Assembly (NCBI GenBank): GCA_030650095.1
Contig: JAUSEE010000044.1
Coordinates: forward strand, 1-51,068
Direction of reading: 5' to 3'
DNA from: Candidatus Buchananbacteria bacterium
GTDB taxonomy: Bacteria > Patescibacteriota > Patescibacteriia > 2-01-FULL-39-33
Length of the DNA: 51,068 nt
The notes under the pieces are model-generated. The model was given only the letters and a program-made list of their open reading frames with translations. It was not told the DNA's origin and did not search any database. Within the stretch, counting starts at the first letter, position 1, and every line of letters starts with the position of its first letter. A program made the position numbers and the translations under genes. Below are positions 48,560-51,068 of the stretch, piece by piece.

Positions 48560-49594
48560 TCAAAACTGATTGATAACCCTTAAATCATTCTTATATAAAA
48601 GTCTAATATCATCAATATTCAATCCTGATTTCATCATATAGCATCTCTCCACTCCCCAACCGAAAGCAAATCCGCCGTATACTTTAGGATCAATACCGCC
48701 CGCTTTGAGGACATTGGGATGGACCATACCGGCGCCAGCCAGCTCCAGCCAACCTTCCTTGCATAGTTTGCAGCCCTTGCCATCGCAAACGCCGCAGGAG
48801 ATATCCACTTCAAAACTCGGTTCGGTAAATTGGAAATGGTGCGGCCGCAGCCGTATTTCCCTGTCCGGTCCGAAAAATCTTTTGACAAAATATTCCACCG
48901 TGCCTTTCAAGTGAGTGATATTTATATCCTGATCAACTACCAAACCCTCAAATTGATGAAACATGGGCGAATGCGAGGCGTCTATCTGTCGGCGATAGGT
49001 TTTGGAAATATTCATCATCCTGATTGGCAAAATATTCTTTTCCATTTCTCTGACTTGTCCGGAGGAAGTGTGCGGAGTCAAAATCCTTTGGCCGAATTTC
49101 TTGTTGATAGGCTCTCTATCTATGAAAAAAGTTTCCCATTCATCTCTGGCCGGATGGCCTTGTGGCATATTAAGCGCTTCAAAGCCGTAATAATCCCATT
49201 CAACTTCCGGATATCTTTCCCTTTGAAAGCCGATATGCTCAAAAATAGCCGAGATCTCTCTAATGGCTTGGCTTACCATATGCAGATGGCCGACAGGCTG
49301 TTCCGTGCCCGGCAAGGTGGGATCAAAAAAATTATCTGATTTATTTTTATTTTCCAGTTTGGATTTGGCTGTCGACATTTGTGACAAAAGGAATTCTTTT
49401 ATTTCATTGGCCAATTTGCCTACCAGCGGCATCTTTTCTTTGGGCAGTTCCTTCATTTCTTTCATCAGTAAAGTTAATGAGCCATTTTTTCGTCCCAAAT
49501 ATTTATTGCTTAGAGATTCTAAATCAGCCGAAGATTTTATCTTTTCCAGTTCTTGGGAAAATTCTTTTTTTAACCCTTCTAATTTCTCTTTCAT
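48560..49594 (-). CDS. pheS: Phenylalanyl-tRNA synthetase alpha subunit
   Basis: Catalytic subunit. 344 residues: N-terminal coiled coil (about 1-85), then the class II core. PLVGKLANEIKEFL, HPARDEWETF, RTHTSSGQVR-type motif 2 (here TPHTSSGQVR) and the motif 3 region GFAFGWGVERCYM are present. A cysteine cluster (CGVCDGKGCKLC) near 270 suggests a zinc site found in many PheS proteins. It has its own promoter. pheT lies downstream after two orphans. Confidence 0.97.
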   Translation of the reverse strand: MKEKLEGLKKEFSQELEKIKSSADLESLSNKYLGRKNGSLTLLMKEMKELPKEKMPLVGKLANEIKEFLLSQMSTAKSKLENKNKSDNFFDPTLPGTEQPVGHLHMVSQAIREISAIFEHIGFQRERYPEVEWDYYGFEALNMPQGHPARDEWETFFIDREPINKKFGQRILTPHTSSGQVREMEKNILPIRMMNISKTYRRQIDASHSPMFHQFEGLVVDQDINITHLKGTVEYFVKRFFGPDREIRLRPHHFQFTEPSFEVDISCGVCDGKGCKLCKEGWLELAGAGMVHPNVLKAGGIDPKVYGGFAFGWGVERCYMMKSGLNIDDIRLLYKNDLRVINQF

Positions 49595-49699: not shown

Positions 49700-50080
49700 C
49701 TAAACCCTTTTTTTGTAGCTCAAAAAGAAGAATTCCAAGACCACAATAGCCGCAATTAAAAGCAAGGTGTTCAATATATTGAGCATCTTGAGGCCCTGAA
49801 GAATCAAGAGACTGACAACCAAGAGGGCAAAAAAGAATGATTGGCGAAACGAGGTGCCGACAATGCTGTATTCCATGGAGAATTTATTGAAAATTTTCCT
49901 GAAAGCGAAACTGGCCAGAAAAAATGTTCCTAAAAGAGAAAATAACAAAGTTAAATAAAACAAAGCAAAGCCGAAAAAATCAGCTTCAAAAGGATCTATT
50001 TGAATGATAACGGCTAGCCAAACAATCCAAAATAAGCCGGTGGCCCCGGATACAACCAAAAGCAGTTGCTTTATATTCAT
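49700..50080 (-). CDS. Four-helix membrane protein of unknown function
   Basis: 126 residues with four membrane segments (about 5-26, 38-60, 82-98 and 100-120) and short charged loops. No family recognised. Monocistronic, with a terminator just before the pheS promoter. Confidence 0.65.
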   Translation of the reverse strand: MNIKQLLLVVSGATGLFWIVWLAVIIQIDPFEADFFGFALFYLTLLFSLLGTFFLASFAFRKIFNKFSMEYSIVGTSFRQSFFFALLVVSLLILQGLKMLNILNTLLLIAAIVVLEFFFLSYKKRV

Positions 50081-50230
50081 AAATTATTTTAATTGATTTA
50101 ATAATATTATAACACAAAGATTTATTTTGTGTCTTCTGGTGTAATAAGGGTTACTCTATTAGATAACCTGCTACGTCCTTATGGACGTGGTAATTTATAA
50201 TTCAGTCTCTACTTGTCTGCTGTCTTTTCT

Positions 50231-50308
50231 GTCATTGCGAGTGAGCTCAAGCGAGCGAAGCAATCCCATGTGATATAAACATAAGATTGCTTCGTACCTC
50301 GCAATGAC
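50231..50308. repeat. GTCATTGCGAG inverted repeat, copy 3
   Basis: Starts gtcattgcgag, ends ctcgcaatgac, with inner gcgaagcaatc and gattgcttcg. The 150 nt before it hold two small hairpins (ggtta/taacc and acgtcc/ggacgt near 50151-50190) and no gene. Confidence 0.88.
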
Positions 50309-50329
50309 AAATAAAGAAACTTTCACATA

Positions 50330-50465
50330 AAAAATCCCGTCAGTGAAGACGGGATTTAGAGAAGGGTGAACTGGAATGTTGTGAAACTGTATTGAAGTGT
50401 GAATCTCCAAACTAAGGTTGGAGAAATACAATTTTCAACATGCCAGCATGAAATCCTTCCCTCAA
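50330..50465 (-). ncRNA. Candidate minus-strand small RNA with own promoter and terminator
   Basis: About 135 nt. Downstream of a TATAAT promoter the minus strand folds into one long interrupted hairpin. GAAGG pairs with CCTTC, then CTGG with CCAG, ATGTTG with CAACAT and AAATTGTATT with AATACAGTTT. The tip hairpin is CTCCAA/TTGGAG (50405-50423). The 3' arm carries an 11-nt bulge. It ends in a perfect terminator, aaatcccgtc/gacgggattt with six T (50329-50357). No open frame of note lies inside. A 6S-like regulator is one option, but no family signature was confirmed. Confidence 0.6.
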
Positions 50466-50471
50466 TGAAAA

Positions 50472-50500
50472 ATTATATCACCGTTTAAAATGACAATCAA
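50472..50500 (-). promoter_or_regulatory. Promoter of the candidate small RNA
   Basis: Minus-strand TTGATT (50500-50495), 17-nt spacer, perfect TATAAT (50477-50472). Start predicted near 50465. Confidence 0.7.
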
Positions 50501-50526
50501 TCTTTTTTTTATATCCACCGGGGAAA

Positions 50527-51056
50527 CCGAGGCCGTCAGGCCTCGGAGGAGAGGGGTGTTCGTTGGACTCATCGCCCTGACATCATGTAAGATTCTCTAT
50601 ACTATGAAGTATAGAAAACAAGCACAAAGTGTTTACTACACCAGATATCATATAGTATTTGTAACTAAGTATAGAAGAAAAGCCCTCAATGAAGGTCTGG
50701 GTGCCTTTTGTGTGGGAATTTTACGTCGCATTTGTCAAAACTACCCTGATTTGGAATTATATGAAGCCAAGTGTGATGAAGATCATATCCATTTTTTAAT
50801 ATCAATACCACCGAAGTGGTCAGTTAGCGATGCAGTCAATATCTTAAAATCAAATTCGTCCAGGGCCATGCGACGTAAATTCCCTTTTCTAGAACAGCTT
50901 TATGATCGTCATGTCGGCTTTTGGTCAGACGGTTATTTTGTCTCAACTGCTGGAGTAAATGAAGAACAGATTAAAAAATACATAAAGCTTCAGGGCGAAG
51001 AGGACAACGGACAAGCGAAGCTTGAAATATAAAATACCGAGTCCGTGAGGGCTCGG
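50527..51056 (+). mobile_element. IS200/IS605-type element with matching end hairpins
   Basis: The transposase gene is bracketed by similar hairpins: ccgaggcc-gtca-ggcctcgg (50527-50546) and ccgagtcc-gtga-gggctcgg (51037-51056, one G-U pair). Both have 8-bp stems and gt(c/g)a loops, as expected for subterminal hairpins recognised by a Y1 transposase. The outer boundaries cannot be fixed because the window ends 12 nt later. No TnpB is seen, so it is IS200-like or a REP-associated type. Confidence 0.7.
50604..51032 (+). CDS. tnpA: Y1 (HUH) transposase TnpA, IS200/IS605 or REP-associated
   Basis: Single-strand DNA transposase. 142 residues; the first strand YYTRYHIVFVTKYR and the HUH motif H61-I-H63 (DHIHFL) are intact. 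Y126 in KKYI is the nucleophile. The length matches IS200 TnpA (about 130-155). I chose ATG 50604; the frame extends upstream to 50490 but runs through the left-end hairpin. All catalytic residues are present, so it may be active. Confidence 0.92.
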   Translation: MKYRKQAQSVYYTRYHIVFVTKYRRKALNEGLGAFCVGILRRICQNYPDLELYEAKCDEDHIHFLISIPPKWSVSDAVNILKSNSSRAMRRKFPFLEQLYDRHVGFWSDGYFVSTAGVNEEQIKKYIKLQGEEDNGQAKLEI

Positions 51057-51068
51057 TAGGTTATTTTT

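Follow-up and report, generated by a model that had tools for sequence, protein, structure and literature searches.

A predicted small RNA gene with a covarying rod-like fold beside an IS200-like element in Candidatus Buchananbacteria

Does the short stretch of DNA beside an IS200-like transposase gene in Candidatus Buchananbacteria encode a small RNA and, if so, of what kind? We examined this locus in the window, i.e., the whole 51,068-nt stretch of DNA analysed here, for which an original prediction had proposed a minus-strand gene for a small RNA. Sequence comparison confirmed the predicted gene (minus strand, 50500–50330; about 135 nt) as real and previously uncatalogued, the prediction being borne out by a conserved promoter, a covarying fold and a terminator. 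The features of the region are as follows.

50472–50500, minus strand: predicted promoter TTGATT-17-TATAAT with an extended -10 (TGaTATAAT), from the sequence and homologue comparison
50330–50466, minus strand: predicted small RNA gene of about 135 nt, with a start about 5 nt past the -10 (near 50466), from the fold, homologues and covariation
50358–50462, minus strand: rod-like interrupted hairpin of 105 nt, from folding, covariation and RNAalifold
50332–50357, minus strand: intrinsic terminator abutting the closing stem, from the sequence
50512–51068, plus strand: IS200-like insertion (Y1 transposase), with a left boundary inferred from comparison with L003 and L004 and a right end not reached
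49700–50080, minus strand: gene of a 126-aa hydrophobic (membrane) protein, downstream of the RNA in six of six genomes
48560–49594, minus strand: pheS, co-directional and beyond the 126-aa gene

The promoter is of the sigma-70 type, with TTGATT at 50500–50495 and TATAAT at 50477–50472 separated by a spacer of 17 nt on the minus strand, 10 matches out of 12 and a TG preceding the -10, in agreement with the promoter originally proposed. Among six homologous loci (see below), the -10 was kept in all and its extended form in five, and in all six genomes it was located 4–5 nt 5' of the modelled start. From base to tip, the rod consists of a closing stem, a 7/4 internal loop, a covarying distal stem, a one-sided 10-nt bulge and an apical hairpin. 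The closing stem, formed by AGGGAAGG paired with CCCUUCUCU, is strongly conserved; the bulge, on the 3' side of the rod, reads UUCACACUUC in the window and is U/C-rich in most homologues. The terminator, which had been predicted to follow the hairpin, has a 10-bp stem (AAATCCCGTC/GACGGGATTT) followed by T, and its UCCCG/CGGG was kept in all six homologues. Because no spacer separates this stem from the closing stem, the two helices could stack.

Folding supported the interrupted hairpin of about 105 nt, with a free energy of -33.3 kcal/mol for the hairpin alone (z = -4.55; 1 of 200 shuffles as good) and of -53.2 kcal/mol for hairpin and terminator together (z = -7.67; 0 of 200 shuffles as good). 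When the whole window was scanned at 137 nt, the locus ranked fifth among distinct places after GC correction; the fold is thus strong but not unique in the window, and would not settle the case alone. A near-perfect palindrome, TGTCATTGCGAG...CTCGCAATGACA, lies at 50229–50318, in the interval separating the RNA from the 126-aa gene, and is absent from this position in relatives; its fold was also one of the strongest in the window.

A DNA search identified the RNA in both of the other searched genomes of the genus (93% and 76% identity), and a covariance model built from the three genus sequences recovered it at the same place in three further members of the family (G004, G006 and G009). One clear copy was present in each of these six Candidatus Buchananbacteria genomes (the source and five others). 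No reading frame was common to the six homologues, as expected from the absence of a frame noted originally, and the locus is therefore not coding sequence. The RNA was not detected in four family genomes (G003, G005, G007 and G008), i.e., it was present in 6 out of 10, which points either to dispensability or to copies overlooked because the assemblies are incomplete. The G005 contig begins just upstream of the 126-aa gene, and a transposase-like frame (L022, 1–340) is found there, where other family members carry the RNA. A DNA-pattern search of 380 genomes of the class gave matches in the genus only, and outside the family the covariance models R1 and R2 returned weak, terminator-driven matches and no RNA. 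Matches of 16-mers in viral contigs did not correspond to the RNA either. Overall, this apparently undescribed RNA family was confined, in our searches, to a single family of candidate-phyla bacteria.

Covariation of its pairs across relatives, assessed on six sequences of which three are close, is what we regard as the decisive evidence for an RNA. In the model-fitted alignment, 93.7% of cells were paired and double changes were observed in 26 out of 46 pairs (0 of 500 shuffles as high), which showed the predicted fold to be conserved; 39 cells carried compensatory double changes versus 13 in shuffles, and neither shuffled nor slid versions came near the observed covariation. Since a fitted alignment leans towards structure, the hairpin was realigned with MAFFT, blind to structure. 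In this alignment, 86.5% of cells still paired and 19 out of 36 pairs exhibited double changes, versus 8.4 in shuffles (0 of 500 as high), and RNAalifold, run unaided, returned essentially the same structure. Moreover, 27 G-U pairs versus 8 C-A mismatches were counted on the claimed (minus) strand, which supports this strand. Most pairs of the distal stem had changed among the six homologues, and five pairs of the closing stem did not vary in the fitted alignment. Conservation peaked at the paired positions of the closing stem and was lowest at unpaired positions.

The Y1 transposase frame spans 50490–51032, with a likely start at 50604, and homology to G001 and G002 breaks at about 50512, which marks the left edge of the IS200-like element. 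Judging from this comparison, the element is an insertion into the upstream region of the RNA and not part of its gene. That the RNA abuts the element could suggest debris of a repeat or an RNA belonging to the element, but this reading is hardly credible and already contradicted: the RNA occurs in single copy in the 1.16-Mb source genome, is conserved in relatives lacking the element, and is missing from the other element matches of the source genome, which cover the far end only. A regulator linked to the element, as originally suggested, is thereby refuted, since the RNA does not travel with the element as an IS200/IS605-associated RNA would. The final 141 nt of the contig (50928–51068) are identical in contigs C38 and C40, which indicates that the assembly breaks inside the transposon.

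In all six genomes, the RNA is located directly upstream of the 126-aa gene, in the same direction; this gene is in turn followed by pheS in the window and in G001 and G002. The 126-aa protein had no Pfam match, and its gene was kept in 36 of the 38 class genomes. This constant position and direction, as well as the 5' GGGA of the RNA, which on inspection of the sequence could alternatively pair with UCCC of the terminator arm, would suit a leader acting in cis on the 126-aa gene and pheST, i.e., an attenuator whose terminator controls read-through. We nevertheless consider such a leader unlikely. In six of six genomes, a separate promoter with an extended -10 precedes the 126-aa gene (TGTTATAAT in the window, with the -10 at 50111–50106), which makes a leader role less likely; the gene also persists across the class where the RNA is absent. 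RNA and gene are about 40 to 250 nt apart, depending on the genome, with a palindromic insertion in the window, and neither a T-box nor any other Rfam family matched. A leader peptide was not conserved: an AUG occurs at the same place in four of the six homologues, but the frames are unrelated and mostly of four codons.

To place the RNA among known families, we searched Rfam at the gathering score and up to an E-value of 10; nothing convincing was found at the region, and the RNA is a small RNA family absent from Rfam. A 6S-like RNA had been suggested originally. Like 6S RNA (RF00013) and its shorter lineage-specific forms, the RNA is predicted to be a free-standing rod made of one long interrupted hairpin, and no other 6S RNA exceeded the cut-off in 38 class genomes, which would leave room for a strongly diverged 6S RNA regulating RNA polymerase. 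However, the 6S covariance model matched neither the region (gathering score, up to E 10) nor G000. Furthermore, 6S RNA has a two-sided central bubble that mimics an open promoter, whereas the large unpaired stretch here, a 3' bulge close to the tip, is on one side only and is accompanied by the 7/4 internal loop; the intrinsic terminator abutting the closing stem and the narrow distribution, with four family genomes devoid of a copy, also differ. A diverged 6S RNA is thus very unlikely, and the suggested 6S likeness was not supported.

The small bacterial SRP RNA (4.5S; RF00169), the other comparison originally proposed, is also a single hairpin of about 105 nt. This identity is excluded: RF00169 gave no match in 11 class genomes (13 out of 14 control genomes responded), the apical domain conserved in SRP RNAs is missing here, and 13 class genomes lacked the Ffh M domain (PF02978), which was present in 14 out of 14 controls. 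The class lineage itself seems to be devoid of SRP.

In gene architecture, size and lineage-restricted distribution, the RNA resembles the intergenic bacterial small RNAs that have their own promoter and intrinsic terminator. By sequence, it combines a covarying structure with its own promoter and terminator, and the next gene has a separate promoter. Unlike in such small RNAs, conservation falls on the paired stems and not on an unpaired seed, and the RNA belongs to no known RNA family. The conserved promoter, the covarying 105-nt rod, the abutting terminator, the fixed synteny and the independence from the transposon point to a free-standing gene. Our best explanation, to which we assign a probability of about 0.5, is a lineage-specific small RNA of Candidatus Buchananbacteria that would act in trans by means of its folded rod, with a protein as the probable binding partner. 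The RNA would be transcribed alone, as a molecule of about 135 nt, and would act mainly through the double-stranded closing stem, binding and perhaps titrating its partner. The best-conserved positions lie in pairs, and the unpaired stretches vary; this pattern of conservation would fit protein recognition of the folded rod rather than a conserved pairing seed.

The main alternative, a trans-acting base-pairing RNA whose U/C-rich bulge or apical loop pairs with target mRNAs while the stems serve as a scaffold, appears possible but doubtful. Its own promoter and terminator, its size and its narrow conservation are those of ordinary bacterial small RNAs, and a U/C-rich bulge recurs in several homologues; however, the unpaired stretches are the least conserved. 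Among 321 genes of one G001 contig (simple start calls), the unpaired segments showed no preference for translation start regions, the bulge pairing with them no better than random stretches did; these A/T-rich regions offer no clear Shine-Dalgarno motif as a target. Anti-Shine-Dalgarno pairing, also considered, showed no excess in the same 321 start regions.

No comparable small RNA was found for these uncultivated, reduced and ultra-small bacteria in the open-access literature searched (small RNAs, 6S RNA). With the six-sequence alignment and the covariance model, a small family is now defined for which metatranscriptomes can be searched, and which would open a way into RNA-based regulation in a lineage seemingly without 6S and SRP RNA.

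In four of the six genomes (G001, G002, G006 and G009), a TTATCCACAG box was identified upstream of the RNA, at a distance of 49–51 bp from the -10. The spacer between box and promoter was identical at only 14–17 of 35 positions in distant pairs, yet the box was kept. No such box was found in G004, and in the window, where it would be expected at about 50526–50517, the break of homology at the edge of the element indicates that it was lost or displaced. Contig C10 of G001 contains eight occurrences of TTATCCACA, which we take to be the classical DnaA box, and only the one at the RNA extends to TTATCCACAG. The longer box is DnaA-box-like, with DnaA as a candidate binder. Transcription of the RNA may therefore be under an activator that binds at about -60, possibly DnaA, and whose box would have been lost in the source genome through the IS insertion. 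A far bolder proposal, which we consider highly improbable, is a separately evolved 6S-like RNA that binds RNA polymerase and is switched by DnaA through the TTATCCACA box, in a candidate-phyla lineage without detectable 6S or SRP RNA; if true, it would tie global transcription to the replication cycle.

The TTATCCACA box was also considered as a mark of a replication origin, and this was rejected: the G001 region is near the maximum, not the minimum, of the cumulative GC skew, and among the dnaA regions examined in the family, only that of G008 contains the exact box. In contig C10 of G001, the GC skew shifts sharply from strongly positive to negative near 320 kb (L091/L096), about 11 kb from the RNA, a position possibly near the replication terminus.
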